Assembly: GCF_000213055.1 (NCBI RefSeq)
Contig: NZ_CM001165.1
Coordinates: forward strand, 1,488,001 to 1,552,000
DNA length: 64,000 bases
Source of the DNA: Streptomyces sp. Tu6071
Lineage (GTDB): Bacteria > Actinomycetota > Actinomycetes > Streptomycetales > Streptomycetaceae
Direction of reading: 5' to 3'
Position 1 is the first letter of the stretch, and each line of letters opens with the position of its first letter. The notes beneath the pieces were generated by a model that did not search any database, had not been told where the DNA came from, and worked only from the letters and a program-made list of their open reading frames with translations. This document shows positions 44,394-64,000 of this stretch, one piece after another. A program made the position numbers and the translations under genes.

Positions 44394-44418
44394 AACTTAG
44401 AATAGGCTTCCCTAAGTT
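44394..44418 (+). promoter_or_regulatory. Iron box (DmdR1/IdeR type) upstream of the siderophore transporter operon
   Basis: AACTTAG and CTAAGTT arms flank AATAGGCTTCC. The core TTAGAATAGGCTTCCCTAA (44397-44415) matches the actinobacterial iron-box consensus TTAGGTTAGGCTAACCTAA at 15 of 19 positions. It contains a -10-like TAGAAT (44398-44403), so iron-loaded repressor would block the promoter. It ends 23 nt before the GTG at 44442. Confidence 0.8.
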
Positions 44419-44441: not shown

Positions 44442-46142
44442 GTGGGAGCAGAGGCAGTGTCGGGGCGGGATGTCCTGCGGGGCACCGTCAGGGGGCAGGG
44501 GCGTCGTGTCGGTGTTGCCGCCGTTCTCGGGTGTGTGCACCAGCTCGGTGAGGCGATGACCCCGGTGCTCATCGGGGTGGTCATCGATCAGGCGGTGGCG
44601 GGGCGGGACGGAGGACGGCTCGTGCTGTGGCTCGTGGTCCTCGCCGTCGTGTACGTGTGCCTGTCGTGGAGCTTCCGGCTCGGGGCGCTCGCCGGGGAGC
44701 GCAGCGCCGAGGAGGCCGGGCACGTCTTGCGGCTCGCCGTCGTGCGCCGGGTGCTCGACGCGCGGGGCGGCGCCGGGAGCGACCGGCTCTCGGGGGAGCT
44801 GGCGAACGTGGCGACCGAGGACGCGAAGCGCGTCGGCGCGGTCACCATGGCGCTCATGAACGGCATCTGGGCCCTCGCCGGGATCACCGTGAGCGCCGTC
44901 GCGCTGCTCCTCACCTCCGTTCCGCTCGGGCTCGTCGTCCTCCTCGGCACCCCCGTGCTGCTGTGGCTCGGGCACCTGCTCAGCAAGCCCCTGGAGCGGC
45001 GCAGCGAGGCCGAGCAGGACCAGGCGGCGGGTGCGGCGGGCGTCGCCGCCGACCTCGTCGCGGGGCTGCGGGTGCTGCGGGGGCTCGGCGCGCAGGGGGC
45101 CGCCGTGGAGCGGTACCGCCGTACGAGCCGGGTCTCGCTGGTCGCGACGCTGCGCGCCGCGCGGGCCGAGTCCTGGCAGTCGGGGCTCGTTCTCGCGCTC
45201 ACCGGTTGTTTCCTCGCCCTGATCGCCTGGGTCGGCGGGCGCCTCGCCCTCGACGGCTCGCTCAGCCTCGGGCAGCTCGTCTCGGCAGTGGGGCTCGCGC
45301 TGTTCCTCGTGGGGCCGCTGGAGACCTTCGCATGGGTCAACGCCGAGCTGGCGCAGGGGCGGGCCTCCGCCGCCCGGATCGCCGAGGTGCTCGGCGCGGG
45401 GCCCGCCGTCGCGGGCGGCGAGGAGCCCGTACCGGCCGACGCGCGCGGGGAGTTGCGGCTCAGCGGGGTGCGGCTGCGGGCGCTCGACGGGGTGGATCTG
45501 CGGGTGCCCGCCGGGCGGCTGACCGGGATCGCCGTGAGCGATCCGGCGCTCGCCGACGCCCTGCTCGACTGCCTCGGGCGGGAGGCCGATCCGGAGGCGG
45601 GCGCGGTCGAGCTGGACGGGGTGCCGCTGACCCGGGTCGACCCGGCCGCGCTGCGCGCCGCGGTGCTCGTCGCGCGGCACGACGCCGCGCTGTTCGAGGG
45701 GTCCCTCGCCGCGAACGTCGTCGCGGCGGGCGAGGACCCCGACGGCGCGGCGGCCGGGCCAGCCATGGCGGCGGCCGACGCGGACGAGGTGGCGCGCGCA
45801 CTCCCGTACGGCGCGGGCACCGACGTCGGCGAGGGCGGCAGGTCGCTCTCCGGCGGGCAGCGGCAACGCGTGCTGCTCGCGCGGGCGTTGCACGCCGCGC
45901 CGCCCGTGCTCGTCGTGCACGACCCGACGACCGCCGTGGACGCGGCGACGGAGGCGCGGATCGCGCGCGGGCTCGGGGACTTCCGGCGCGGCCGTACGAC
46001 GGTCGTCGTGACCAACAGCCCGGCGCTGCTCGCCGTGACGGACCACGTGGTGTTCCTGGACGGCGGGCGGGTCGGGGCGGAGGGGACGCACGAAGAACTC
46101 GCGCGGACCCATGAGACGTATCGCGGGACGGTGTGGGCATGA
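44442..46142 (+). CDS. ABC transporter permease/ATP-binding fusion, degenerate ATP-site subunit
   Basis: 566 residues: membrane domain (about 1-310) fused to a nucleotide-binding domain, the architecture of type IV exporters and of IrtAB-like siderophore importers. The ATPase core is strikingly degenerate. The Walker A position reads GIAVSDPALADALL with no GxxGxGKS. Walker B ends in HDP (D494-P495), without the catalytic Glu. The switch His is replaced by Asn (VVVTNSP, about N525). The signature LSGGQRQ (469-475) is intact. The protein must therefore work with the next gene's product. The GTG start has GGAGGG 6 nt upstream. It is the first gene under the iron box; its stop overlaps the next ATG. 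Confidence 0.88.
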   Translation: MGAEAVSGRDVLRGTVRGQGRRVGVAAVLGCVHQLGEAMTPVLIGVVIDQAVAGRDGGRLVLWLVVLAVVYVCLSWSFRLGALAGERSAEEAGHVLRLAVVRRVLDARGGAGSDRLSGELANVATEDAKRVGAVTMALMNGIWALAGITVSAVALLLTSVPLGLVVLLGTPVLLWLGHLLSKPLERRSEAEQDQAAGAAGVAADLVAGLRVLRGLGAQGAAVERYRRTSRVSLVATLRAARAESWQSGLVLALTGCFLALIAWVGGRLALDGSLSLGQLVSAVGLALFLVGPLETFAWVNAELAQGRASAARIAEVLGAGPAVAGGEEPVPADARGELRLSGVRLRALDGVDLRVPAGRLTGIAVSDPALADALLDCLGREADPEAGAVELDGVPLTRVDPAALRAAVLVARHDAALFEGSLAANVVAAGEDPDGAAAGPAMAAADADEVARALPYGAGTDVGEGGRSLSGGQRQRVLLARALHAAPPVLVVHDPTTAVDAATEARIARGLGDFRRGRTTVVVTNSPALLAVTDHVVFLDGGRVGAEGTHEELARTHETYRGTVWA

Positions 46143-48076
46143 CGACCGAGGACGGCACCGAGCGGGACCTCCTCCCGACCGCCACGCCCGCGCGCACGCG
46201 CGCCGCCGTGCGCGAACTCCTGCGCCCGCACCGGGTGCTCGCGGGCGCGGGCTTCGCCGTGCTCGTCGTCGCCACGGCGGTGGGGCTGCTCACGCAGCCG
46301 CTCCTCGGGCGGATCGTCGACCTCGTGACGCGGCACCGCTCCCCCGACGCGCTGACCTGGCCCGTGCTCGCCCTCGCCGGGATCGCGCTCGTGCAGGGCG
46401 CCTCGACGGCGTGGGGCATGGCGCTCGTCTCGCGGCTCGGCGAGACGGCGCTCGCGCGGTTGCGCGAACTCTTCGTGGAGCGCGCGCTCTCGCTCCCGCT
46501 CGACCGCGTGGAGCGGGCGGGCTCGGGGGACCTCAACGCGCGCGTGACGCGGGACGTGTCGCGGGTCGCCGAGGCGGTCCGCACGGCGCTGCCCGAGCTG
46601 GCCAAGTCGGGGCTGTCGATCGTGCTGACGCTGGGCGCGCTCGCGCTCCTCGACTGGCGGTTCCTGGTGGCCGCGCTCGTCGCCGTACCCGTGCAGGCGT
46701 GGACGGCGCGCTGGTACGTGCGCCACGCGGTGCCGCTGTACGCCCGCGAGCGGATCGTGACGGGGGCCCAGCAGCAGCAGTTGCTCGACACGATCGGCGG
46801 GGCGCGGACGGTGCGCGCCTACGGGCTCCAAGCCGAGCACGACCGGCGGGTCACCGCGCGTTCGCGCGCCGCCGTCGACCTGACGATGCGCGGGGTGCGG
46901 CTCGTGCTGCGCTTCTACGGCAGGCTGCACGTCGCCGAGTACCTGGGCCTCGCCGCGGTGCTCCTCACCGGGTTCCTCCTGGTGCGGGACGACGCGGTGT
47001 CGGTCGGGACGGCGACGGCCGCCGCGCTGTACTTCCACAGCCTCTTCACGCCGGTCAACACCGCGCTCGTGCTCCTCGACGACGCGCAGTCGGCGACGGC
47101 GGGGCTCGCGCGCCTCGTCGGCGTGGTCGACGTACGCGCCGAGGAGGACGCGGCGGACGGCGCGGCGCCCGTCACGGGGCCGCCCGGGGTGGTGGTCTCG
47201 GGTGTCACGCACGCGTACGTGCCGGGGCGGCCGGTCCTGCACGGCGTGGACCTGGAGGTGCGGCCCGGGGAGCGCGTCGCGCTCGTCGGGGCGAGCGGCG
47301 CGGGCAAGACGACGCTCGCCAAGCTCGTCGCGGGGCTGCACCGCGCGGAGTCGGGGAGCGTCCGCGTCGGCAATGCCGAGCCGGACGCCTCGGGGCGGCT
47401 CGTGGGCCTCGTGACCCAGGAGGTGCACGTCTTCGCCGGGCCGCTCGCCGAGGACCTGCGCCTCACCCGGCCGGACGCCGACGAGGCGGAGCTGCGCGCG
47501 GCGCTCGCCGCCGTGGGGGCGCTGGAGTGGGTGGATCGACTGCCCGAGGGCCTGGACACCGTCGTGGGCGAGGGCGGGCACCGGCTCACCACCGACCGCG
47601 CCCAGCAACTCGCGCTCGCCCGGCTGCTGCTCGCCGATCCGCCGCTCGTCGTGCTCGACGAGGCGACGGCTGAGGCGGGGAGTTCGGGCGCGCGGGTCCT
47701 GGACGAGGCGGCCGAACGCGCCCTGCGCGGCCGTACGGCGCTCGTCGTCGCGCACCGGCTCGGGCAGGCGGCGGCGGCCGACCGGGTCGTGGTCATGGAC
47801 GCCGGGCGGATCGTGGAGCAGGGCACGCACGAGGAACTCCTCGCCGCCGACGGCGCGTACGCGACCCTGTGGCGGGCCTGGTCGGGCAGCCGCTCCCCCG
47901 GTGAAAGCGTCCGCGCGGCGGAGGGCGGCGTCCCGGCAGGTGACGCCACCCCGGCAGGGGGCGGCACCCCTGCAGGTGGCCGCGTCCCCGCGGCGAAGGG
48001 CCGCCCCGCGCCCGTACCGCCCCCGTCCTCCGCCCCCTCCCCCGCGCACCCCGAGATCTCCGAAGCCCCCCGCTGA
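46139..48076 (+). CDS. ABC transporter permease/ATP-binding fusion, catalytic subunit
   Basis: 645 residues: membrane domain (about 30-330) plus nucleotide-binding domain. Walker A GASGAGKTT (384-392), Walker B VVLDE (D507-E508) and the switch His (ALVVAHRL, H539) are intact. The signature motif is lost: RLTTDRAQQ (482-490) replaces LSGGQ. Combined with the preceding subunit, exactly one complete ATP site can form. The last about 60 residues are a Pro/Ala/Gly-rich tail with imperfect repeats. It is coupled to the upstream gene by ATGA; a GTG two codons earlier is less likely. It probably moves a siderophore across the membrane; direction is uncertain. Confidence 0.88.
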   Translation: MTTEDGTERDLLPTATPARTRAAVRELLRPHRVLAGAGFAVLVVATAVGLLTQPLLGRIVDLVTRHRSPDALTWPVLALAGIALVQGASTAWGMALVSRLGETALARLRELFVERALSLPLDRVERAGSGDLNARVTRDVSRVAEAVRTALPELAKSGLSIVLTLGALALLDWRFLVAALVAVPVQAWTARWYVRHAVPLYARERIVTGAQQQQLLDTIGGARTVRAYGLQAEHDRRVTARSRAAVDLTMRGVRLVLRFYGRLHVAEYLGLAAVLLTGFLLVRDDAVSVGTATAAALYFHSLFTPVNTALVLLDDAQSATAGLARLVGVVDVRAEEDAADGAAPVTGPPGVVVSGVTHAYVPGRPVLHGVDLEVRPGERVALVGASGAGKTTLAKLVAGLHRAESGSVRVGNAEPDASGRLVGLVTQEVHVFAGPLAEDLRLTRPDADEAELRAALAAVGALEWVDRLPEGLDTVVGEGGHRLTTDRAQQLALARLLLADPPLVVLDEATAEAGSSGARVLDEAAERALRGRTALVVAHRLGQAAAADRVVVMDAGRIVEQGTHEELLAADGAYATLWRAWSGSRSPGESVRAAEGGVPAGDATPAGGGTPAGGRVPAAKGRPAPVPPPSSAPSPAHPEISEAPR

Positions 48077-48184: not shown

Positions 48185-49255
48185 ATGTCCCGCGCCCCCA
48201 GAGCCCTCCGGCTGACCGGCCTGCTCGCCTCCACCGTGCTGCTGACGGCGACGGCCGCCGCCTGCGGCTCCGACTCGGACTCCGCCGCCGACAACGACAC
48301 GAAGGCGTCGCAGGACTCCGCCGCCGCCGGGGCCTTCCCCGTCACGCTCGCCCACAAGTTCGGCAGCACGACGGTGAAGTCCGAGCCGCGGCGCATCGTC
48401 ACCGTCGGGCTGACCGACCAGGACGCCGTCCTCGCGCTCGGCAAGGTGCCGGTCGGCACGACCGAGTGGCTGGGGGGCTACAAGGGCGCGATCGGGCCCT
48501 GGGCGCGCAAGGACCTCGGCGGTGCGAAGGCGCCGACGGTCCTCAAGGACAGCGGCACGGGGCCGCAGGTGGAGCGCATCGCCGCGCTCAAGCCGGATCT
48601 CATCCTCGCGGTGTACGGCGGGCTGACGAAGGCGCAGTACGAGAGCCTGTCGAAGTTCGCGCCCGTCGTCGCGCAGCCCAAGGAGTTCAACGACTACGGC
48701 GTGCCGTGGCAGCAGCAGACGGAGGAGATCGGGAAGGCGCTCGGCAAGTCCGCCGAGGCGAAGAAGCTCGTGGCGGGCGTCGAGGACAAGTTCGCGGCGG
48801 CGAAGAAGGAGCACCCCGAGTTCGCGGGGGCCACGGGTGTCGTGGCGACCCCGTACGAGGGCACGTTCGTCTTCGGCAGCCAGGACCCCCGCTCGCGGCT
48901 CCTGTCCGACCTCGGCTTCGAGCTGCCGAAGGACCTGGACAAGGTGATCGGGGACGAGTTCGGCGCCAACATCAGCAAGGAGCGGCTGGACCTGCTCGAC
49001 CAGGACGCCGCGCTGTGGATCGCGCCGGACACCACCTCGTCGGTGAAGAAGCTGCACGCCGACAAGATCTACGGGGACCTGGACGTCGCGAAGCAGGGGC
49101 GCGAGGTCTTCGTCAAGGAGACGAGCGACTACGGCAACGCCGTGTCGCTCTCGACGGTGCTGAGCATCCCGTACGTCCTGGACCGCCTGGTGCCGCAGCT
49201 CGCGGCGGCGGTGGACGGCAAGCCCGCCACGAAGGTGGAGAACCCGGCGTCCTGA
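48185..49255 (+). CDS. Iron-siderophore-binding lipoprotein (FecB/FepB-like)
   Basis: 356 residues. A lipoprotein signal peptide ends in TAAAC (Cys near residue 27), followed by an Asp/Ser-rich linker. The mature part is a class III periplasmic-binding fold: RRIVTVGLTDQDAVLALGKVP opens it, and IAALKPDLILAVYGGLTKAQYE and PYEGTFVFGSQDPRSRLLSDLGFELP are typical of ferric-hydroxamate binding proteins. It captures a ferric siderophore outside the cell. No FecCD-type permease or FecE ATPase lies nearby; the two exporter-like ABC subunits are directly upstream. GAAGGA lies about 12 nt before the ATG. Confidence 0.9.
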   Translation: MSRAPRALRLTGLLASTVLLTATAAACGSDSDSAADNDTKASQDSAAAGAFPVTLAHKFGSTTVKSEPRRIVTVGLTDQDAVLALGKVPVGTTEWLGGYKGAIGPWARKDLGGAKAPTVLKDSGTGPQVERIAALKPDLILAVYGGLTKAQYESLSKFAPVVAQPKEFNDYGVPWQQQTEEIGKALGKSAEAKKLVAGVEDKFAAAKKEHPEFAGATGVVATPYEGTFVFGSQDPRSRLLSDLGFELPKDLDKVIGDEFGANISKERLDLLDQDAALWIAPDTTSSVKKLHADKIYGDLDVAKQGREVFVKETSDYGNAVSLSTVLSIPYVLDRLVPQLAAAVDGKPATKVENPAS

Positions 49256-49330: not shown

Positions 49331-49537
49331 TCAGTCGCCGTCCACGAGGCTCTTGGGGCGCATGTCCGTCCAGTGCGTCTCGATGTAGTCGGCGCACTCC
49401 TGCCGGGGCGCCGGGCCGTGGACGACGCGCCAGCCGGCCGGGACGTCGACGAAGTCGGGCCACAGGCTGTGCTGGTTCTCGTCGTTGACGAGGACGGAGT
49501 AGTGGCCGTCGGGGTTCTCGAAGGGGTTGCTGCTCAT
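49331..49537 (-). CDS. mbtH: MbtH-like protein
   Basis: 68 residues with the full family signature: [21 protein letters not shown] and [11 protein letters not shown]. MbtH proteins bind NRPS adenylation domains and are needed for their solubility or activity. It is encoded 76 nt downstream of the NRPS on the same strand, so it is likely the last gene of the same transcript and serves that enzyme. AAGGAG lies 9 nt before the ATG. Confidence 0.95.
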
Positions 49538-49613
49538 GGTGTGCGCTCCTTGCTGGATCGGGACGGGGTGGGTCTGGACGGAGTCGGGCCGGGGCCGGGG
49601 CGGGGCGGGGCGG

Positions 49614-52600
49614 TCAGTCGCGGGGCTCCGCGTGCCGCACGAGGGCTTCCAGGGCGCGGAACCACGCCTCGCCGAGGTCCCGCACGGCGTCCTCGGTGAG
49701 GAGGTCCGCGGCGAAGGACCAGTGCGCCGCGAGGCGCGGTCCCTCCGGGCGGTCCTCGGTGAGGGCGTTGAGGGTGAGGGCGTGCGACATGGGCATGTCC
49801 GGGTCGGCGTCGAGGTCGGCGGCGTCCTCCTCGGGGGCGTAGGACCAGTCGGCGTCCTCCGCGTGCCCGAAGCGGCCCATGTAGTTGAACTCGATCTGCG
49901 GTTCCGCGAGTCGGGCGAGCGCGGGCGCGGTCTCCGGGTTCAGGTGGCGCAGCAGCCCGTGCCCCGTACCGGCACCGGGGAGGCCGGTGAGGTGGGCGCG
50001 GACGCGGGCCACGGCGGCCTCGGGGTCATCCGCGCCGGAGGGGCCGGGGTCGAGGCGTACGGGGACGACCGTGGTGAACCAGCCGACGGTGCGGGAGAGG
50101 TCCGCGTCGCCCGCGATGTCCTCGTCCCTGCCGTGGCCCTCCAGGTCCACCAGGACGGGGCCGCCGGTGCCGCCGAGCACGCGGGCGCGCCAGTCGGACA
50201 CCGCCTGGGCGAAGGCCGTGAGCAGCACGTCGTTGACGCTCGCGCCGAACGCGGCGGGCACGGCGCCGAGCAGGGGCCCGGTGAGGTGCGGGGGCAGGGT
50301 CAGCGAGACGTACCCCGTCGTCGCGACCGTGTCGCGCGCCGTGTCGAGCGGGCGGGGCAGCGGGAGCCCGGCGCCCTCGGCGAGCACGTCGGTCCACCAC
50401 GGCAGTTCGTCGGCCGTCGCGGGCTCCGCCGCCCGCGCGCCGAGCAGGCGCGACCAGCGGGCGAAGGACATCTCGACCGGGGCGAGCGCGGGGGCCCGCC
50501 CCTCCCGCACCGCGTCCCACGCGGCGGCCAGGTCAGGGAGGAGCGCGCGCCAGGACACGCCGTCGACGGCGAGGTGGTGGACGAGCAGGAGCAGCCGCCC
50601 CGCCCGCCCGGGACCGGCGTCGTACCAGACCGCGCGGACCATCGCCCCCGCCTCGGGGTCGAGGCCGGCCCGCGCCTCCTCGGCGTGCGCGGCGACGGCG
50701 GCGCGCAGCGCCTCCGGGTCGTCCGCCTCGGCCCGTACGTCCGCGCGCCGCAGCCAGTCGCGTACGTCGCACTCCCCCGCCGCCGGGACCGTGAGCGCGG
50801 GCTCGGGCGCGCTCACGAGGCGGGCGCGGAGCATGTCGTGGCGGGCGGCGAGGGCGCCGAGCACGGTGAGGAAGCCGTCCTCGGTGAGGTCGGCGGGGGT
50901 ACGGACCAGGGCGGCCTGGTGGTAGGCGGCGAGGGGGCCGCCGCGCTCCACGAGGGAGCGCATGATCGGGGTGAGCGGGACCGTGCCCGTGCCGTCGTCG
51001 TGCGTGGTGCCGCGCTCGGCGGGGGCGAGCGGGCTGGCGAGCGGGGCGAGCGCGACGACGGTGCGGTGCTGGAGCAACTGGCGCGGGGTCAGGCGCAGTC
51101 CGGCCGCGCGGGCGCGGGCGACGACCTGCATCGCGATGATGCTGTCCCCGCCGAAGGAGAAGAAGTCGTCGTCGGTGCCGACGGCGTCGGCGGGCAGGCC
51201 GAGCGCTTCGGCGAAGAGAGCGCGCAGGGTGCGCTCGGTGGCGTTCTCCGGGGCCCGGCCGCCGCCCGCCGCGGTGAAGTCGGGGGCGGGCAGCGCGGCG
51301 CGGTCGAGCTTGCCGTTGGGGAGCAGCGGGAGGCGGTCGAGGACGACGACGGCGGCCGGGACCATGTACTCGGGGAGCGTCGCGGCGGCGTGGGCGCGCA
51401 GCTCGGCGGGCTCGGGCGCGGGGCCGTGCGGGGCGGCGTAGGCGAGGAGCTGGTGGACGCCGGGGCGGGGCTCGCGGGTGACGACGACGGTGCGGGCGAC
51501 GGCGGGGTGGCTGTCGATCGCCTTCTCGATCTCGGCGAGTTCGACGCGGTAGCCGCGGATCTTGACCTGGTCGTCGGCGCGTCCCGCGAAGCGCAGGAGT
51601 CCTTCCTCGGTCCAGCGGGCGAGGTCGCCCGTGCGGTACATGCGCTCCCCGGCGGGGCCGTACGGGTCGGCGAGGAAGCGTTCCGCGGTGAGCGCGGGCC
51701 GGTCGAGGTAGCCGCGCGCGAGGCCGGGGCCCGCGAGGTACAGCTCGCCCGTGACGCCCGGCGGCACGGGGCGCAGCGCGGTGTCGAGCACGTAGGCGCG
51801 CGAACCGTGCACGGGGCGGCCCACGACGGGCTCCCCGGGGCTGTCCGCGACGCGGCCCACGAGCGCGTCGACGGTGGACTCGGTGGGCCCGTAGAGGTTG
51901 ACCGCCTCGGTGTGCGGGAGGGCCGCGAGCCTGCTCCACAGCGCGGGCGGCACGGCCTCGCCGCCGAAGCCGACGAGCGCGAGGGGGCAGTCGCCCTCCG
52001 GGCCGACGAGTCCGCTGTCCGCCATGCGGGCGAGGAGGGACGGGGTGACCTCGATGAAGTCGATCGCGTGGGTGCGGACGAAGGCGGCGAGGAGTTCGGG
52101 GTCGCGGCGCGTCTCCTCGTCGGCGATGTGCACGGCGTGGCCGTCCAGGAGCCACAACTGCGGTTGCCAGGAGGCGTCGAAGGCGAACGACCAGGCGTGC
52201 GCGACGCGCAGGTGGCGGCGGCCCGTGCGGCGGCGTGCCGTCTCGTGGAGGTCGTGGCGGTGGCTGTGGAAGAGGCTCGTGATGTTCCGCTGCGTGATGA
52301 CGACGCCCTTGGGGCGCCCGGTGGAGCCGGAGGTGAAGATGACGTAGGCGGGGTGGTCGGGCTCCGGCGGGGTGGGCTCGGTCTGGGGCAGAGCCGCGAG
52401 CGGGGTGTCGATGCGGAGGACGGGCGTCCCGGTCTCCGGGAGCGTCGTGCCCGCCGTGGTGAGGACGAGGACGGGGCGGGCGTCGGTGAGCTGGGCGGTG
52501 AGCCTGGACTCGGGGAGTTCGGTGTCGAGGGGCAGGTAGGCGGCGCCCGCGCGCATGACGGCGAGGATCGCGACCAGGTGCGCGGTGGTGCGGGGCAGGG

Positions 52601-55600
52601 CGAGGGCGACGGTGCGCTCGGGCGCGGCGCCGTGCGCGGCGAGGACGCGGGCCAGTTCCTCGGTGCGCCGGTCGAGTTCCGCGAAGGTGAGGCTCGTGCG
52701 GCCGTCCGTGACGGCCACGGCGTCGGGGCTCTCCGCGACCTGCGCGGCGAGGAGCTCGGGGATCGTGTGCGGGTGCGCGGGTTCCGGGAGCGCGGTGTCG
52801 TTCCAGGTGGTGAGGACCCGGTGGCGCTCGGCGGGCTCGAGGAGGTCGAGCCGCCCCACGGGCAGCTCGGGGTCCTCCGCCATGCCCGTCAGGAGCCCCG
52901 CGAGGGCGTCCGCGAGGCGCCGCGCCGTCGCCGCGTCGATGAGGTCGGGGCGGAACTCGGCGGTCAGGCGCAGGTGTGCGCCCGGCTCGACGGCCCACGC
53001 GAAGGGGTAGTGCGTGGAGTCCTCGTGGTCGCGCACGGTGGCGCGCGGGGCCTCGCCGCGCGCGGGGTCCTCGGCGACGGGGTACGACTCGAACACCACG
53101 AGGGTGTCGAAGAGTTCGCCGAGTCCGGCGGCGCGCTGGATGTCGGCGAGGCCGAGGTGCTGGTGTGCCAGAAGCCGGGACTGCTCGTCCTGGAGCCGCG
53201 CGAGGAGGGCCGCCGCGCTCTCGTCCTGGCGCAGGCGGACGCGCACGGGGACGGTGTTGATGAAGAGCCCGATCATCGATTCGGCGCCCGGGAGTTCGGG
53301 CGAGCGGCCCGCGACGGTGGCGCCGAAGACGACGTCGGTGCGCCCGGTGATCCGGCCGAGGAGGACACCCCAGGCGGCTTGCACGAGGGTGTTGAGGGTG
53401 ACGCCCCGGGAGCGGGCGAACGCCTCCAGCGCGGCGGTACGGGCCCGGTCCAGCTCCAGGGTGTGGGTGTGCGGGACGGCGGCGGCCCGGTCGGGGTCGG
53501 CGGGGGCGAGGCGTGTCGGTTCGGTGAGTCCGGAAAGGGCCTCGGCCCACGCGGTCGCCGCCGCTTCGCGGTCCTGCGCGGCGAGGTGGCGCAGGTGGGC
53601 GCGGTAGGGGGCGGGCGGGGGCGGGGTGCGGCCCTCGTAGCGGGCCCACAGTTCGGCGGTGAGCAGGGGCAGGGACCAGCCGTCGAGCAGGAGGTGCTGG
53701 TGGGAGAGGACGAGGCGGTGGCGGCCGGGTCCTGTGCGGGCGAGGAGGAGGCGCAGGAGCGGGGGGCGTACGGGGTCGAAGCGGCGGCGCTCCTCGGCGA
53801 GGAGGCGGGTCCAGTCGGCTTCGGCGTTCGCGGCGGGGCCCGTCAGGTCCACCGTGCGCCACGGCAGTGCCGCCGTGCGCGGGACGACGGCGACGGGGCG
53901 GCCCGTGGAGAGGTGCCGGAAGCCGCTGCGGAGGTTGTCGTGGGCGTCCAGGAGGTCCTGGGCGCTGGCGCGCAGGCGCGCGGCGTCGAGGGGGCCTTCG
54001 AGGTCGTAGGAGACCTGCACGGTGTAGACGTCGGGGCCCTCGTCGCCGGAGTCGAGCGCGGCGTGGAAGAGGAGTCCGGCCTGGAGCGGGGAGAGGGGCA
54101 GCAGCCGGGTCCCGGCCGGGAGGCCCGCGAGTTCGGCGCGCTCGGCGTCGGTGAGGGCGAGCAGGTCCGTGTCCGCGTCCGCGTCCGCCGCGGGGTCCGC
54201 TGTCGTGGCGACGGCGGCGAGTCCGGCGACGGACTTGTGGCGGAAGACGTCGCGGGGGCTGAGGGCGAGTCCGGCGGCGCGGGCGCGGGCGACGAGCCGC
54301 ATCGCGACGATGCTGTCCCCGCCGAGGGCGAAGAAGTCGTCGTCGACGCCGACGCGCGGCAGGCCGAGGACGTCCGCGTAGAGCGCGGCGAGGGTTTCCT
54401 CGCGCGGGGTGCGCGGGGCCGCGTCGCCGGTTTCCGCGGCGAAGTCCGGTGCGGGCAGGGCCCGGCGGTCGAGCTTGCCGTTCGGGGTGAGCGGGAGCGC
54501 GTCCAGGAGGAGCACGGCGGCGGGCACCATGTGCTCGGGGAGCGCCGCCGCGGCGTGGGCGCGCAGCGTCGTGGGGTCGGCGGCGGCTCCGGGCGCCGGG
54601 ACGACGTACGCGACGAGGCGGTCCTCACGCAGGACGACGGTGGCGTGCGCGACGTCCTCGTGGGTGCTCAGGGCGGCCTCGATCTCGCCGGGTTCGACGC
54701 GGAAGCCGCGCAGCTTGACCTGCTCGTCGGTGCGGCCGAGGTACTCCAGCTCGCCGTCGGCGGTCCAGCGCGCGAGGTCGCCCGTGCGGTACATGCGCTC
54801 CCCGGCGGGGCCGTACGGGTCGGCGACGAAGCGCTCGGCGGTGAGGGCGGCGCGGCCGAGGTAGCCGCGCGCGAGCTGGACGCCCGCGAGGTACAGCTCG
54901 CCCGCGACGCCCGGCGGGACCGGGCGCAGGCGCGCGTCGAGCACGTACGTACGGGTGTTGCGCACCGGGCGGCCGATCGGCACCGTGCCGCCGGGCGTGG
55001 CGCCCACCTCGTGCGCGGTGACGTCGACGGACGCCTCGGTGGGCCCGTACAGGTTGTGCAGGCGGCACCCGGGCAGGACCTCGTGGAAGCGCGCGGCGAG
55101 CGGCGCGGGCAGGGCCTCGCCGCTGCACACGACGCGGCGCAGGGACGCGCAGCCGGGCGCGGTCGGCTCGGCGAGGAAGGCGCGGAGCATCGAGGGCACG
55201 AAGTGGGCGGTCGTGACGCGCTCGCGGCAGATCAGGTCCGCGAGGTGGGCGGGGTCCTGGTGGCCGCCGGGGCGGACGACGACGAGCGTCGCACCGGTCA
55301 CGAGCGGCCAGAAGAACTCCCAGACGGAGACGTCGAATCCGGCGGGGGTCTTCTGGAGCACGCGGTCCCCGGCGCCGAGCCGGTGGTGGTCCTGCATCCA
55401 GCGCAGGCGGTTCGCGATGCCCGCGTGGGGCACCGTGACGCCCTTGGGGCGGCCCGTGGAGCCCGAGGTGTAGAGGACGTAGGCGGGGTGGCGGGGGTCG
55501 GGCGCGGCGGGGAGCGGCGCGTCGGCGGGGCGCTCGGGGGTGCCGTCGGGGTCGACGGCGAGGCGCGGGACCTCGCTGTCGGGGAGGGCGACGCCCCCGG

Positions 55601-58600
55601 TCGTGACGAGGCACGCCGGGCGGGCGTCGTCGAGCGTGTACGCGAGGCGGTCGAGGGGGTAGCCGGTGTCGAGCGGCAGGTAGGCGGCGCCCGCGCGGTG
55701 CACGGCGAGCAGCGTCACGACGAGGGCGACGGAGCGCGGGAGGGCCACGGCGACGGTGCTCTCGGCGCCCGCGCCGTGCGCGGCGAGGGTACGGGCGAGG
55801 GCGTCCACGCGCGCGTCGAGTTCCGCGTACGTGAGCGAGGCGCCCTCGAAGACGAGCGCGGTCGCCTCCGGGGTGCGGGCCGCCTGGGCCCGGAACGCCT
55901 CGGGGAGCGTGACGTCCCGCCCCGCCTCCTCGGTGGCGTTCCACGCGGTGAGGACGAGGGAGCGCTCGTCCTCGCGCAGGACGTCGAGCGTCGCGAGCGG
56001 GGCGTCCGGCGCGGCGACCGCCTGCTCCAGGAGCGAGACGAGGCGCTCGCCGAGGAGTGCGGCGGTGCGCGCGTCGAAGAGGTCGGCGCTGTACTCGATC
56101 CAGCCCTGGATGCCGCCGCCCTCACCCTGCTCCACGAAGTCGAAGCTGAGGTCGAACTTCGCGGTGTCCTGGCCGACGCTCTCGCGCCGCGAGGCGAGCC
56201 CCGGCAGGAGCGGCGCCTCGGCGCCCTCGCCCGCGAGGTGCACGACCATCACCTGGAAGAGCGGGTGCCGGGCGAGCGAGCGGGCGGGGTGCAGGGCCTC
56301 CACGAGGCGTTCGAAGGGGAGCTCCTGGTGGGCGTAGGCGGCGAGGTCGGTCTCGCGGACGCGGGCGAGGAGTTCGGCGAAGGTCGGCTCGCCGGAGAGG
56401 TCCGTGCGCAGCACGAGGGAGTTGACGAAGAAGCCGACGAGGTCTTCGAGGGCTTCGTCCGCGCGGCCCGAGACGGGCGCGCCGAGCGGGATGTCGTCGC
56501 CCGCGCCGAGCCGGTGCAGGAGGCCGGCGACGGCTGCCTGCGCGACCATGAACATGCTGACGCCGTGCGTGCGGGCGAGGGCGCGCAGGGCGCGCTCCAG
56601 GTCCGGGGAGACGGTGAAGCCGACGGTGCCGCCGCGCCCGCTCGACTCGGCGGGGCGGGGCCTGTCGGTGGGGAGGTTCAGCTCCTCGGGGAGCCCGGCG
56701 AGCGCGCGGGTCCAGTGGTCAAGGAGGGCGGGCCCGGTCTCGGCGAGGAGGTCCCGCTGCCACAGCGTGTAGTCGGCGTAGCGGGCGGGCAGCGGCGACC
56801 AGTCGGGGGCGCGGCCCGCGGCGCGCGCGGCGTAGGCGGTGGCGAGGTCGGCGCGCAGGGGGCGGTCCGACCACTCGTCGGTCGCGATGTGGTGGAGGAC
56901 GAGGAGGAGGACGTGCTCCCCGGGTCCGGTGGGCGCGAGCGCGGCGCGCAGCGGGAGGTCACGGGCCAGGTCGAAGGGCCGGGCGACCTCGGCGGACAGC
57001 TCCTCGTGCCCCACGGTCGTGAGCGGGACCGCGGCCTCCTCGGGTGTCAGGACCCGCTGGTACGGGATGCCTTCGACGGCCGGGAAGACCGTGCGCAGCG
57101 GGGCGTGGCGGGTCACGACGTCGTGGAGGGCGGCTTCGAGAGCGGCCCGGTCCAGCTCGCCGGTCAGGCGCCACGCGGTGGGGATGTGGTAGGCGGTGCC
57201 GGTCTCCTCGACCTGCTGGAGCAGCCACAGGCGCTGCTGCGCCGAGGAGAGCGGGAGGCGCGCGGGGACGGGGCGCGGGGTGGCGAGGGCGGGGCGTGCG
57301 GGGCCCGTCGCCGCGTCGATGCGGGCGGCGAGGCGCGCGGGGGTCGGCGCGTCGAAGACCGTGCGCAGCGAGAGGTCGGCGCCGAGTGCCGAGCGGAGGC
57401 GGGCGACGAGGCGCATCGCGGTCAGCGAGTGGCCACCGAGGGCGAAGAAGTCGTCGTCGGGGCCCACGTGTTCCTGGTCGAGCACGGCGGCGAAGAGCGT
57501 GCACAGCAGTTCCTCGCGCGGCGTGCGCGGCAGCCGGCCGCCGCTCGCGGCCGGGGACGGCGGGGCGGGCAGGGCGGCCGTGTCGAGCTTGCCGTTGACG
57601 GTACGGGGCAGGGCGGCCAGGGCGACGAAGGCGCCGGGGACCATGTGGTCCGGGAGGGTGGCGGCGGTGCGGGCGCGCAGCTCTCCGGGGTCGGTCGCGG
57701 TGCCGGGCGCGGCGACGACGTAGGCGAGGAGGCGGTCCTCGCGGACGACGACGGCGGCGGCCGAGACGGCGGGGTGGCGTGTCAGCACGGCCTCGATCTC
57801 GCCGAGTTCGACGCGGAAGCCGCGGATCTTGACCTGGTCGTCGGCGCGCCCGAGGAAGACGAGGGTGCCGTCCGCGTCGCGGCGCACGAGGTCGCCCGTG
57901 CGGTACATGCGCGCCCCCGCGACCGGGGCGTACGGGTCGGCGACGAAGCGCTCGGCGGTGAGCGCGGGGCGGCCGAGGTAGCCGCGCGCGAGGCCCTCGC
58001 CCGCGAGGTACAGCTCGCCGGGGACGCCGACCGGGGCCGGGCGCAGGGCTTCGTCCAGGACGTGGGCGCGCGTGTTGTCGAGCGGCGCCGCCCACGCGCC
58101 TTCGGGGGTGTGGTGCCAGCCGTAGGCGTCGACGGCGCACTCGGTGGGGCCGTACAGGTCGTGCACGGTGGTGTGCGGGAGCGCGGTGAGGCGCTGCCAC
58201 AGGGCGGGCGGCGTGGCCTCGCCGCCGACCGCGAGGACGGCGGGAACGTGGCGCGCGCGGTCGCCGGGGCCGGTCTCGGCGAGGAAGCCGTGGTGGAGGA
58301 GTTCGCGCAGGTACGTCGGCGTGAGGTCCGCGAAGTCGACGCGCGCGTCCGTGACGCGGTCGAGCAGCGCCTCCGGATCGCGCATCGTCGACTCGTCCAC
58401 GACGTGGAGTTCGTGCCCGGCCAGGAGCCAGAGCAGCGGTTCCCAGGAGCCGTCGAAGCTGAACGAGGCGGCGTGCAGGGCGCGCAGGGTCGCGCGGCCC
58501 GTCGTGCGCACGGCGGGGGTGATGAGGTCGCGCAGGTGGGCGGCGTAGAGGTTGGACAGGCCCCGGTGGGTGCCGATGACGCCCTTGGGGCGACCGGTGG

Positions 58601-61600
58601 ATCCGGAGGTGTAGATGGTGTACGCGGCCTGGTCGGGGCGGGGCGCGGGGGGTGCGGCGGACGCGGGCCCGGGTTCGTGGCGCGCGGGCTCGTCGAGGAA
58701 CAGGCGTGGCACTCCCGGGACTTCGGGCAGCTCCGCCGCGTACTCCGTGGTCGTCACGAGGCACACGGGTGCCGCGTCGGCGAGCATGAACTCCAGGCGC
58801 TCGGCCGGGTGCGCCACGTCGAGCGGGAGGTACGCGGCCCCGGCGGCGAGGACGCCGAGGAGCCCGGGGACCATCTCCTCGCGGGGCAGGGCGAGCGCGA
58901 CGACGGCACCGGGCGCGGTGACGTGCGGGCGCAGGCGGGCGGCGAGCGCGGTCACGGAGGCGTGCAGGGCGGCGAAGGTGGTGCGGCGCGGCGCGGCGTC
59001 GGGCCCGGTGACGAGGGCGGTGGCCGCGGGGGCGCGGCGGGCGGTGTCGGCGAGGATCTCGGGCACGGAGCGGGTCTCGACGGGGTGGGCGGTGTCGTTC
59101 CAGCCGCCCGTGCCGGTGCCGTCCCCGGTGCCCGTGCCGTCCCACGTGCCCGTGGCCTTCGCGTGCTCCTCGGGCGTCAGGATGTCCAGGTCGCGGAGCG
59201 GGACGCCGGGGGTGCGGGCCGCGCGGTCCAGGAGGAGGACGAGGCGTTCGGCGAGGAGCGCGGCCGTCTCCGGTGCGGCGAGGTCGGTCGCGTACTCCAG
59301 GAGCAGCGTGATGCCGCCGTCCGCGTCGGAGGCGTCCACGAAGGTGAAGTCGAGGTCGAACTTGGCGGTGCCCGTGTCCATGTCGTACCACTCGGCGGGC
59401 AGCCCGAGGAGAGTGGCCGCGTCGCCCTCGGGGCGGTGGTGGTAGCCCAGCATGACCTGGAAGAGCGGGTTGCGCCCGGTGACGCGGGGCGGGTTGACGG
59501 CCTCCACGAGCCGGTCGAAGGGGAGGTCCTGGTGCTCGAAGGCGGCGAGGGACGACTCCCGTACCCGGGCGAGGAGTTCGGTGAAGGTGGGGGTCCCCGA
59601 GAGGTCGGTGCGCAGGACGAGGGTGTTGACGAAGAAGCCGACGAGGTCGTCGAGTCCGCCGTCGGTGCGCCCGGCGATGGGCGCGCCGAGCGGGATGTCC
59701 TCGCCCGCGCCGAGCCGGTGCAGGAGCGCGGCGGTCGCGGCCTGGAGGAGCATGAACATGCTCGTGCCGCTCGCGGCGGACAGCTCGCGCAGGGCGCGCC
59801 CGGTCGCGGCGGGCACCTCGCGGCGCACGACGGCGCCGTGCCCGGTGGGCGCGGCGGGGCGCGGCCGGTCCAGGGGCAGGGCCAGCTCTTCGGGGGCGCC
59901 GTCAAGGGCCTCTGTCCAGAAGGCGAGTTGCCGGGCGCCGAGCTGGTCCAGGAGCTGTTCCTGCCACAGCGTGTAGTCGGCGTACTGGACGGGAAGCGGG
60001 GCCCACTCGGGCGCGGTGCCCCGCGCACGCGCCGCGTAGGCGGTGTCGAGGTCGGCGAGGAAGGGCCGGTCGGACCACTCGTCGGTCGTGATGTGGTGCA
60101 GGACGAGCGCGAGGACGTGTTCCTCGGGCGCGAGGGTGAACACCTCGGCGCGTACGGGTAGTTCGCGCGTGAGGTCGAAGGGGCGGCGCTGCGCGGCCTC
60201 GATGAGCGCGGGCAGGTCGGCCTCGGAGCGCTCGCTCACGGTGAGCGGCGGCCGGGCCTCGTCGGCGGGGACGAGGAGCTGGTACGGCTCCCCTTCGTGC
60301 ACGCCGACGAGGGTGCGCAGCGACTCGTGACGCACCGTGACGTCGTGGAGAGCCCGGCGCAGGGCCTCGGTGTCGAGGGCGCCGCGCAGCCGTACGACGA
60401 GCGGGAAGTTGTAGGCGGGGCTCGCGCCTTCGAGCTCCTGGACGAGCCACAGGCGGCGCTGCGCCGCCGAGAGGGGGACGCGGTCGGGGCGCTCCGCGCG
60501 GGCGGTGAGGGCGGGGCGGGCGGGCTTCCCGGTGTGCGCGCGGGCGGCGAGGAGCGCGGGGGTGGGGGCCTCGAAGAGGTCGCGGATGGCGAGTTCGGCG
60601 CCGAGTTCGGCGCGGGCGCGGCTGATGAGGCGGGTGGCGAGCAGGGAGTGGCCGCCGAGATCGAAGAAGTTGTCCTCGGCCCCGGCCTCCGCGAGCCCGA
60701 GCACGTCGGCGAAGAGGCGGCACAGCACCTCCTCGCGCGGGGTGCGGGGCCCGCGCCCGCCGCCGAGCGCGACGGCCGGCTCGGCCTCGGGCAGCGCGCG
60801 GACGTCGAGCTTGCCGTTGGCGTTCATGGGCAGCGCGTCGACGGTCACGAAGGCGGCGGGGACCATGTAGGCGGGCAGGGTGCGGCCCAGGTCCTCGCGC
60901 AGGGTGCGGACGAGTGCGGCGGTCCCGCGCGCGGCGGTCGGGTCGTTGGTGTACGGGGCGCCGGAGCCGCGCGGACGGAACAGGCCCCCGGCGAGCCGGG
61001 GTTCACCGCTCCCCGGCGCGAGGAACACGGCCTCGTACGCGCCGTCCCGCGCGGACCACGTGGTCAGGACGCGGCGGCCCGCGGCCTCTCCCATGCGGTG
61101 CACGGCCTCGGGCGCGACCCCGTCCGCGCGGGTGCGGCCGTCCGGGATGCCGGTGAGGCGCAGGGCCTCCCCGGTCCCGGCGAGGAGCTGGGCCGCGTCC
61201 TCCTCCGTCGTCCAGGCGGTCTCCCGCACCGCGCGCAGGTCCGTGTCCGCCGGGCCCGCGTGGAGGACGACGTCGTAGCGGTGCCGGGTCAGCTCGTTGT
61301 CGTGGTGGCCGCGCTTGGTGCGCAGATCGGCCCCGTACCCGAGGCTCGTGAAGTAGTCGGGATCGACGAGGAGTTCCTTCTCCAGGCGCAGCCCGCGCGC
61401 CACCGCGCGCTCCAGGTCCTCGGGGGCGGTGCCGCGCGCCCGCTGGATCTCGGTGTGGAAGGTGCGGGCGAGGCGCAGGTTGCGCACGTCGCCGACGAAG
61501 AGGGCGCCGCCGGGGGCGAGGAGGCCCATCGCGCCCTCGATGACGCCGGTCAGGTACGCGACGCCGGGGAAGTACTGGATGACGGAGTTGATGACGATCG

Positions 61601-64000
61601 TGTCGAAGAAGCCGGTGGGCAGGCCGCTCAGGTCGTCGGCGGGGCGGCAGCGCAGCTCCACGCGCGCGGCCAGCTCCGGGTCGGTGGACCGCAGTTCGGC
61701 CTCGATCTTGCGGATCACGGGTGCGGCGATGTCGGTCGCCCAGTACGCCTCCGCGTCCTTGGCGAGCCCGGAGAGGAGGAGCCCGGAGCCCACGCCGATC
61801 TCCAGGACGCGGCGCGGCCTGAGCGCGCGGACGCGGTCGAGTGTGGCCGCGCGCCACTCGCTCATCTCCGCGAAGGGGATGGGCTCGCCGTCGTAGGAGC
61901 TGTCCCAGCCGTCGTAGCGCTCGGTGGAGACGGCGGTGCCGATCTTCTCGTACTCGTCGGTGTAGATCTCGCGCCACTCGCCGACCTGCGCCTCCTCGGC
62001 GGCGGTGCGGGCGTCGGCGCCCGAGGGGACGACGTAGCCGACGAGGCGGTCCTCGCGGACGACGACGGCGGCCTGGGCGACGAGCGGGTGGCGGCTGAGC
62101 GCCGTCTCGATCTCGCCGGGCTCGACGCGGTAGCCGCGGATCTTGACCTGGTCGTCGGTGCGGCCCAGGTAGTCGAGGTTGCCGTCCGGGCGACGGCGCA
62201 GGAGGTCCCCGGTGCGGTACATGCGGGAGCCGGGCGCGCCGAAGGGGTCGGCGACGAAGCGTTCGGCGGTCAGCGCCGGGCGGTCGAGGTAGCCGCGCGC
62301 GAGACCGACACCCGCGATGTACAGCTCGCCGGGCACGCCGTCCGGCACGGGGCGCAGCCAGGCGTCCAGGAGGTGGGCGCGGGTGCCCCGGATGGGGCGG
62401 CCCACGGTGGGGGTCGCGCTGTCGGGGGTGCCGCCGCCGAGGGTGTTGATCGTGTACTCGGTGGGCCCGTACAGGTTGTAGCCGTAGGTGCCTTCGGTGT
62501 CGCGCAGCGCCGTCCACACGGTCTCGGGGACGGCCTCGCCGCCGAGCAGGACGAGCGGTGGCACGTGTCCTTCGAGCAGGCCCTGCTCGATGAGGAGGCG
62601 CGCGTAGGTGGGGGTCACGTTGACGACGTCCACGCGGTGTTCCGCGCAGTAGGCGACGAGGGCCTCGGCGTCGCGGCGCAGGTCCTCGTCGCACACGTGG
62701 ACCTCGTGGCCCTCGACGAGCCAGAGCAGTTCCTCCCACGACATGTCGAAGGCGAAGGAGACGGTGTGCGCGATGCGCAGGCGCCGGCCCCCGGCGGCGG
62801 CGACGGCCGGGGCGAAGACCTCCTTCTGGTGGTTGATCTGCATGTTCGTCAGTCCCCGGTACGGGGTGACGACGCCCTTGGGACGCCCGGTCGAGCCGGA
62901 GGTGTAGATGACGTACGCGGGGTGTTCGAGGCTGAAGCGGAGGCGTACGGGGGTGTCGGGCAGCGCGGCGAGTTCGGCCACCACGGCGGGGTCGTCGAGC
63001 AGGAGGCGCGGGGTGTCCCCGGCGAGGGTCGCGGAGACCTCCGTACGGCTGAGCAGGAGCAGCGGGCGGGCGTCGGCGAGCATGTCCGCGAGCCGGTCGG
63101 CGGGGTGGTCCAGCTCCAGGGGCAGGTACGCGGCGCCGGTGCGCAGGACGGCGAAGAGCGCCACGACCATGTCGAGCGAGCGGGGCAGCGCGAGCGCGAC
63201 GACGCGCTCGGGACCCGCGCCGCGCGCGAGGAGCAGGCGCGCGACGCGGTTGACGGCGGCGTCGAGCGCGGCGTACGTGAGCGTGCGCGCGCCGAAGACG
63301 AGGGCCGTGGCGTCAGGGGTGCGCGCGGCCTGTTCGGCGAGGAGGCCGGCGACGGTCTTCGCGGGCACCTCGGCCTCGCTCGCGGCCCGCTCGGCGCGCA
63401 GCGCGGCGTGCTCGGCGGGCAGCAGCGCGTCGAGGGAGCCGACGGGGGCCGCGAGGTCCTCGCTCAGGCGGTCCACGAGGAGCGTGAAGCGGTCGAGGAG
63501 GGCGCGGGCCCGCTCGGCGGGGATCAGGTCGGGGCGGTGGCTCAGCGAGACGGTGACGCGCTCGCCCGGGGTGACGACGAGGTTGGCCGGGTAGTGCGTC
63601 GCGTCGACGTTGGCGACGGCGGTCGCGCCGTGGCGGGTGCGCAGGGCTTCGAGGCGGTCCTCGGTGTCGTTGTCGCGCAGGACGAAGAGGGTGTCGAAGA
63701 GCTTGCGGTGCCCGGTCTCGGCCTGGAGCACGCCGAGGCTGAGGTGTTCGTACGGCATCAGGCCGAGGCGTTCGTCCTGGATGCGGCGCAGCAGGCCGAG
63801 GACGGGCTCGGCGGGGTCGAGCGCGACACGCGTGGGGACGGTGTTGAGGAAGAGCCCGATGATGTCGCCGACGTCGGGGACCTCGCTGGGGCGGCCCGCG
63901 ACGGTCGTGCCGAAGACGACGTCGGTGCGGCCGGTGGCGGTGGCGAGGGTCAGTCCCCAGGCGGCGTTGAGGAAGGTGTTGAGCGTCAGTCCGTGCACGC
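49614..64000 (-). CDS. Nonribosomal peptide synthetase, hydroxamate siderophore type (5' end beyond window)
   Basis: 4,794 or more residues; the frame is open to the right edge. Numbering here counts from position 63998. Domain order: partial C (1-190); A1 (205-1066) interrupted between cores A8 and A10 by an N-methyltransferase (about 660-1030, VLEIGVGSG at 731); T1 (S1118); C (HHITTDEWS at 1301); A2 (1640-2145); T2 (S2191); C (HH at 2369); A3 (2695-3180); T3 (S3229, GGDSI type); C (QHLLLDGWS at 3434); A4 (3740-4235); T4 (S4286); E ([11 protein letters not shown] at 4474). Specificity codes read by eye: A1 DMENLGLIN, the hydroxyornithine code of coelichelin and erythrochelin synthetases; A2 DGEDAGLVD, unassigned with two acidic positions; A3 DVWHVSLVD, serine; A4 DAQEGGLVD, unassigned. 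No thioesterase follows the E domain, so release or elongation must occur elsewhere. Adjacent mbtH, the transporters and the iron box make a siderophore product likely. Confidence 0.93.

Follow-up and report, generated by a model that had tools for sequence, protein, structure and literature searches.

Scabichelin and turgichelin, made by nonribosomal peptide synthetases (NRPSs), are the closest described relatives of the system analysed here. Scabichelin, called a tris-hydroxamate in the title of its paper (as given in reference lists), has an exact mass of 647.36, and the hydroxyornithine code of its line is DAWEGGLVDK (PMC7692728); an ion of C24H43N8O11- is given for turgichelin (PMC10458595), which Streptomyces scabiei is reported to produce besides scabichelin (PMC8914351). 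We analysed a 64,000-nucleotide stretch of the 7.5-Mb genome of Streptomyces sp. Tu6071 (the window, G000:C1:1488001-1552000; "extended" coordinates carry its numbering into neighbouring genome sequence), which holds most of an NRPS gene whose enzyme line very probably builds a scabichelin-kind iron-binding peptide with one extra serine. The synthetase is real and conserved and has one module more than the relatives that have been characterised, and the condensation (C) domain in front of its third module, C2, lacks the catalytic histidine.

The NRPS occupies a single minus-strand frame of 7,355 residues and six modules (extended 49614-71681). Its C-terminal 4,794 residues, with modules 3-6, lie inside the window (49614..63998), the frame running off the window edge, and modules 1 and 2 are supplied by the sequence beyond. 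Pfam, motifs and our own hidden Markov models (HMMs) give the domain order (vestigial C)-A1-MT-T-C1-A2-T-C2-A3-MT-T-C3-A4-T-C4-A5-T-C5-A6-T-E, where A denotes adenylation, MT methyltransferase, T carrier and E epimerisation domains; in the two scanned pieces Pfam found 2+4 AMP-binding domains, 2+4 PP-binding domains, 2+5 condensation stretches and 1+1 methyltransferases, one condensation copy being split by the piece boundary, so that six condensation-type domains remain; our HMMs concur. The adenylation codes, read at code positions placed by alignment, are DVWILGATN (A1), DVWHFSLVD (A2), DMENLGLIN (A3), DGEDAGLVD (A4), DVWHVSLVD (A5) and DAQEGGLVD (A6). This architecture, defined by the A1 and A3 codes, is common to 175 of the 192 proteins analysed (186 database proteins, taken from the best 120 of 831 and the best 120 of 754 matches, with the query and five proteins from genomes), 17 falling outside the family; the 175 include near-duplicates, for example CANI_G002 and P0121. 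The N-terminus of the window protein (residues 1-250, L007:6932-7681) resembles the end of a C domain; an N-terminal C-type match occurs in 81 of the 175 relatives, and HHxxxD[GE] in the first 250 residues of none.

An earlier note on this stretch had placed an NRPS at 49614..64000, had read there a DMENLGLIN code with a nested methyltransferase and a serine code DVWHVSLVD, and had predicted a hydroxamate siderophore containing N-methyl-hydroxyornithine and Ser, closest to scabichelin and turgichelin. The minus-strand gene, both codes and the methyltransferase (between motifs A8 and A10) are present, and codes, MT domains and domain order agree with that class. The four adenylation domains that the note numbered A1-A4 exist but belong to modules 3-6 of six. 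Its backbone, ...-(N-Me-hOrn)-X-Ser-(D-Y) (Me, methyl; hOrn, N5-hydroxyornithine), can be completed with X as Orn and Y as hydroxyornithine, the C-terminal domain being epimerase-like as D-Y supposes, but it did not take in the two N-terminal modules, one of them N-methylating.

With the scabichelin/turgichelin type the window NRPS shares a hydroxyornithine code in last position, the codes DVWILGATN at A1 and DMENLGLIN at A3, MT domains in modules 1 and 3 (as in 175 of 175 family members), a terminal E domain with no thioesterase (TE), and a cluster containing an ornithine N-monooxygenase and a formyltransferase; it departs from that type in having six modules, through an extra Ser module 5, where five are expected. 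The scabichelin synthetase of S. scabiei (P0167) has the same A1 and A3 codes, a Ser A2, DGEDAGLVD at A4 and DAQEGGLVD last, likewise with MT domains in modules 1 and 3, D-type C domains without E and a terminal E, but its five modules lack the window's module 5. The turgichelin synthetase of Streptomyces turgidiscabies (L118) follows the order and N-methylation of the window, also in five modules without module 5, and bears a Ser code at A4 in place of DGEDAGLVD. Amycolatopsis nigrescens P0145, which to judge from its Ser codes may be albachelin-like, has six modules, orthologous C and E domains and the A3 and A6 codes of the window, but differs in a full starter C, the lack of a module 1 MT, E domains after modules 1 and 2, and Ser at A4. 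A five-thousand-residue line in genome G815 has modules 2-5 of the scabichelin order with a C2-type domain of motif HHLLLWDGWS; unlike the window protein, it carries an E after the Ser module, and its first module is not in the same protein.

These relatives allowed us to convert codes into residues. The rule N-Me-fhOrn + Ser + N-Me-hOrn + (Orn or Ser) + cyclic hOrn (f, N5-formyl) gives 647.3602 with Orn and C24H44N8O11 with Ser, matching both published products (the scabichelin mass and the turgichelin formula) exactly. Because the S. scabiei line, whose product mass is 647.36, has the window's A4 code at its own module 4, and because S. turgidiscabies carries a Ser code there and has a product formula with Ser, A4 is assigned Orn; A6 is assigned hydroxyornithine since, with W239, its code DAWEGGLVD equals the published hydroxyornithine code of the scabichelin line. 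The predicted product is thus very probably N-Me-fhOrn-Ser-N-Me-hOrn-Orn-Ser-cyclo-hOrn (C29H54N10O12, 734.392).

In the assembly that we propose, the N-monooxygenase would make N5-hydroxyornithine, part of which the formyltransferase would formylate; module 1 would load and N-methylate N5-formyl-N5-hydroxyornithine, module 2 would add Ser, module 3 would load N5-hydroxyornithine and N-methylate its alpha-amine, modules 4 and 5 would add Orn and Ser, and module 6 would load a further N5-hydroxyornithine. We infer that the terminal E inverts this last residue, and that its N5-OH then closes on its own carbonyl, releasing a cyclic hydroxamate. With three hydroxyornithines, one formyl group and one terminal lactam in a tris-hydroxamate, the third hydroxamate would have to join the Ser2 carbonyl to the N5-OH of residue 3; C2 would therefore pass the dipeptidyl chain to that N5-OH and not to the alpha-amine, the alpha-amine being the likely site in front of DAQEGGLVD modules. 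Modules 1 and 3, which bear the MT domains, handle the two residues that this scheme leaves with a free alpha-amine.

The stereochemistry of the product can be read in more than one way. C domains following carrier 1, carrier 2 and, where there are six modules, carrier 5 are D-type with an E directly before them in 0 of 175 proteins, those after carriers 3 and 4 are L-type, and the protein ends in E throughout (175/175). Carriers 1, 2, 5 and the last bear GGDS and carriers 3 and 4 GGHS, except in three proteins with one motif unmatched by the pattern. The terminal domain of the window protein has the HHxxxDxxSW and EGHGR motifs of epimerisation domains and is similar to solved E domains; among the 175 relatives the HHxxxD motif is found in all and E[GAR]HGR, by pattern, in 165, and as at most 67 residues follow this domain there is no TE. 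The D and L labels of our HMMs derive from the window's own domains, independent support coming from solved structures and from orthologues that follow E. C1, C2 and C5 group by sequence with C domains that follow E; the orthologues of C1 and C2 in P0145, and of C2 in G815, do follow E domains, and the two module-2 E domains concerned group together (100/100), while the P0145 orthologue of C5 has no E before it either. On the strength of these orthologues, loss of E1 and E2 with retention of their partner C domains is the most likely history of the family, gain in the other lines being less likely. The constant lack of an E before C1, C2 and C5 also suits two other explanations, which jointly come close to an even prospect: these domains may themselves epimerise (Dual C/E), or residues 1, 2 and 5 may be plain L with the D-type character a relic. 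Dual activity we dropped, because the carriers are GGDS and not LGGHSI and the spacing from carrier to C1 motif is 70-73 residues in the window against the 95-105 described for Dual domains; plain L residues are at odds with the E domains preceding the P0145 and G815 orthologues and with the statement that scabichelin and turgichelin are not all-L (PMC6024995).

The molecule may already have been described under a different name. Tsukubachelin, from Streptomyces TM-34 and TM-74, contains hydroxyornithine, N-methylation and Ser, and the product could be this or another hexapeptide siderophore already described, in which case it would not be new; we regard this as plausible while leaning against it. 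One paper cites tsukubachelin as a Streptomyces siderophore of NRPS type (PMC6011815), and a line so common in the genus (below) may well have been isolated before. Against this, a literature search by formula and mass returned nothing relevant, and no formula string, among the 10 matches listed of 106, the structure and formula of tsukubachelin not being part of the comparison.

We then considered the domain assigned the unusual bond. Canonical condensation domains carry HHxxxDG, whose second His is catalytic; the C2 motif, RHLILWDGWS, has Leu at that place, and this His is absent in 175 of 175 family members. C2 nevertheless passes the C-domain family score, its motif D, G, W and S are conserved, and HMMER pairs its Leu with the second His of PvdL in an alignment that is gapless at that point. 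Among 986 C-A pairs, 216 of the 220 C domains that precede DMENLGLIN-type modules have Leu, Val or Phe instead of the second His, and all 766 that precede other modules keep it, including 180 in front of DAQEGGLVD hydroxyornithine modules; L195, whose code is cut to DMENLGL--, is counted with the former. Motif Asp, Gly, Trp and Ser are kept in all 220, and a Trp before the motif Asp (WDGWS) occurs in 215 of them versus 0 of 766 others. Beyond the 175, we used 50 of 98 matched places (30 loci and 20 fetched, including every place listed at at least 60% identity); the 41 further non-duplicate rows (one of which, L153, belongs to the family but is truncated where its contig stops) comprise 37 without the second His, and 15 without any His at motif positions 3-5. 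Five proteins of ~3,650 residues (L179, L182, L183, L185, L186), which we take to be coelichelin-like, have a DMENLGLIN module after a His-less C (YHLLLWDGWS) as in the window, but are shorter and form a separate subclade. Decay of C2 was considered and dropped, since no other C-type domain of the family is as conserved (mean pairwise identity 0.82 for C2, versus 0.74-0.78).

The role of the C-domain His was called "a matter of debate" in a 2021 structural paper, in which the His of fuscachelin C3 was essential (H2697Q, ~1% activity; PMC8097023); the excerpt of that paper contains neither hydroxyornithine nor hydroxamate (0 occurrences), and no literature search was aimed at His-less or hydroxamate-forming C domains. 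A chemical reason for the missing His suggests itself: since a hydroxylamine acceptor is largely unprotonated at neutral pH, C domains that acylate it would need no general base, so that the His would be dispensable and could be lost. We tentatively extend this, at slightly less than even confidence, to a distinct and ancient class of C domains that acylates the N-hydroxy side chain of N5-hydroxyornithine and is marked by WDGWS and by His loss, the hydroxylamine supplying its own nucleophilicity; the His would stay where the alpha-amine is acylated too, and the terminal E may set the D-residues of the E-less modules.

Two other explanations of the missing His appear unlikely. His loss could be unrelated to the hydroxylamine and reflect common ancestry or N-methylation of the acceptor, the bond forming without chemical help from C2: most His-less domains do form one clade (41 rows, 100/100), and A3 of the window carries an MT. 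This clade, however, covers five family codes (f1, f3, f85, f89, f90) and yet keeps the motif Asp, Gly, Trp and Ser throughout, which is not expected from decay; and 13 of the 28 His-less loci whose available sequence extends 250 residues or more beyond the A domain have no MT hit, so N-methylation is not required for His loss and was dropped as its cause. One further domain, L172/L204 (G981), has TSELILLDGWS before DMENLGLIN, with neither a motif His nor the WDGWS Trp, and its position outside the clade is unsure; a second, independent loss in L172 was not established, as its inclusion in the clade is not rejected (approximately unbiased test, p 0.19). The remaining explanation, that C2-type domains keep a working His in a pair that sits one position further upstream (RH or HH ahead of LxLWDGWS) and reaches the active site through a kink, is similarly doubtful, for although motif position 4 is His in 205 of 220 and HH stands directly one place upstream in 15 others, 15 of 220 (RQV, RQF, RRF and SEL types) have no His at positions 3-5 and the PvdL alignment is gapless at this point. 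A one-residue insertion, an idea taken from P0145, was abandoned when the larger alignment showed the 12-residue motif stretch to be free of net indels in all 986 domains and some domains had no His at all.

We consider the scheme as a whole, namely an iron-regulated cluster in which a six-module, TE-less NRPS of scabichelin/turgichelin type makes a tris-hydroxamate with its His-less C2 acylating N5-OH, to be probable. Several points weigh against it. The product is a prediction from genes, the turgichelin formula used in the code rule is a putative annotation (PMC10458595), and A4 selection may be lax, S. scabiei being reported with both peptides. Acylation of N5 of residue 3 by C2 is deduced from the connectivity. 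His loss, lying mostly in one clade, is perhaps a single event; the one His that remains in the window C2, one place upstream, could have taken over; and four DMENLGLIN-type C domains (L177, L178, L181, L184) keep the canonical His. These four branch beside the His-less clade; they serve a DMENLGLIN acceptor module as in the window, but with a C motif of HHIVMDGWS and the hydroxyornithine module in a separate frame with no MT hit. Three of the exception loci have a starter C-A-T-E, two like modules (presumably Gly), a Ser module and a hydroxyornithine module in its own frame, and a fourth, L202, has only the later part of this order visible; we take the four proteins to be fuscachelin-like, the module order being that of fuscachelin. 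The hydroxyornithine of fuscachelin is acylated on both nitrogens, which would account for retention of the His in such lines.

The family is widespread and varies in two respects. By A domains, 115 of the 175 have six modules and 60 have five (116 and 59 by carriers). The A1-MT module was detected at E <= 1e-250 in 34 of 392 genus genomes (the window's own and one partial match, G415, included) and, at the same strength, in 2 of 396 genomes of a phylum-wide draw, the window's own among them; another genome scan matched 52 of 394 genomes, and three lines were taken from it. A rare new line, as we had once supposed, is incompatible with these counts. The A4 code is Ser in 61 of 115 six-module lines (other codes in 54) and in 52 of 60 five-module lines. 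Six-module Ser and Orn lines have identities of 0.26-0.54 between the C3 end and roughly motif A5, and of 0.60-0.75 beyond it; within module 4 (57333-60767) the sharp difference is confined to the A core, a pattern as after a natural swap of that core. The earlier note had envisaged a possible new member of the siderophore class; module 5 sets the line apart from the scabichelin and turgichelin synthetases, but rarity is not supported, the architecture being shared so broadly. Of the findings that would have counted against the note, a missing monooxygenase is not the case here, and near-identity with a characterised cluster applies to the scabichelin and turgichelin lines except for their lack of module 5.

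Coordinates of the features are collected in the table.

Table. Features of the NRPS cluster (window coordinates unless marked extended).
Feature	Position	Strand	Basis or remark
NRPS, rest of gene	L007:1-7681, to extended 71681	-	frame and Pfam
C2, end of domain (start extended 64724)	63411..64000	-	motif RHLILWDGWS just outside window
A3, DMENLGLIN, N5-hydroxyornithine	62121..63335	-	
Methyltransferase nested in module 3	61227..61898	-	between motifs A8 and A10; Pfam, own HMMs
T3, LGGHSL	60552..60767	-	
C3, L-type	59142..60482	-	nearest solved chains 5u89 and fuscachelin PCP-C (peptidyl carrier protein-C)
A4, DGEDAGLVD, assigned Orn	57807..59048	-	
T4, LGGHSL	57333..57548	-	
C4, L-type	55941..57260	-	
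A5, DVWHVSLVD, Ser	54693..55889	-	
T5, LGGDSI	54222..54434	-	
C5, D-type	52827..54119	-	catalytic His retained (QHLLLDGWS)
A6, DAQEGGLVD (DAWEGGLVD with W239), hydroxyornithine	51540..52745	-	
T6, FGGDSI	51051..51269	-	
Terminal epimerisation domain	49632..50984	-	no thioesterase after it
MbtH-like protein	49331..49537	-	PF03621, 99.6 bits
Siderophore-type periplasmic binding protein	48185..49255	+	PF01497
ABC exporter half	46133..48076	+	
ABC exporter half	44442..46142	+	
Iron-box-like site before exporter genes	44397..44415		consensus match, up to 5 mismatches
Ornithine N-monooxygenase	extended 75892-77211		PF13434, 352 bits

An open frame antisense to the NRPS gene (49527-60161, plus strand, 3,544 residues) looks like a by-product of high-GC coding, since it fails the GC-by-position filter that the NRPS frame passes.

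Downstream of the NRPS gene lie the MbtH gene and then, on the plus strand, the exporter halves and the binding protein; upstream and divergent from it are two FecCD permeases, an ATPase, the formyltransferase and the ornithine N-monooxygenase. The nearest database records of the monooxygenase are from Streptomyces, at 98% identity, and among 80 loci found through it, the stretch fetched includes the formyltransferase in 69 and the A1-MT module in 44. With up to 5 mismatches to an iron-box consensus, and overlapping registers merged, a scan of 104 kb found sites at five places (44397, 71684, 71740, 75838 and 102163), all but the last immediately in front of cluster genes. When this 104 kb was shuffled ten times by 2-mers, nine shuffles had no hit and the remaining one had a single hit; an iron-box search allowing up to 3 mismatches found no site. 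The fifth place (extended 102163, L008:18163, 4 mismatches) lies outside the cluster, before a minus-strand frame ending at 102157. Elsewhere in the genome, a second strong PF13434 gene (ornithine/lysine monooxygenase, G000:C1:6158932-6159978) lacks any NRPS-domain hit within the 40 kb taken around it, and two IucA/IucC genes far from the NRPS cluster (G000:C1:1826150-1829962) are likely a second siderophore pathway. At 36451-37980 (plus strand) the window also encodes a 509-residue protein with the unusual pairing of an N-terminal helix-turn-helix and an EPSP synthase-like domain.

The locus extends a widespread siderophore family by a variant with an extra module, whose predicted product has an exact mass that can be searched for. 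As a natural experiment in the loss of E domains and in the swapping of the module 4 A domain between Ser and Orn, the family is also useful for NRPS engineering. The part most worth following is the pattern of the C-domain His: if hydroxylamine-accepting C domains have indeed lost it while their neighbours in the same protein keep it, the role of this residue would be testable with natural enzymes, and the connectivity of such siderophores (N5 versus alpha-N) could perhaps be read from sequence.

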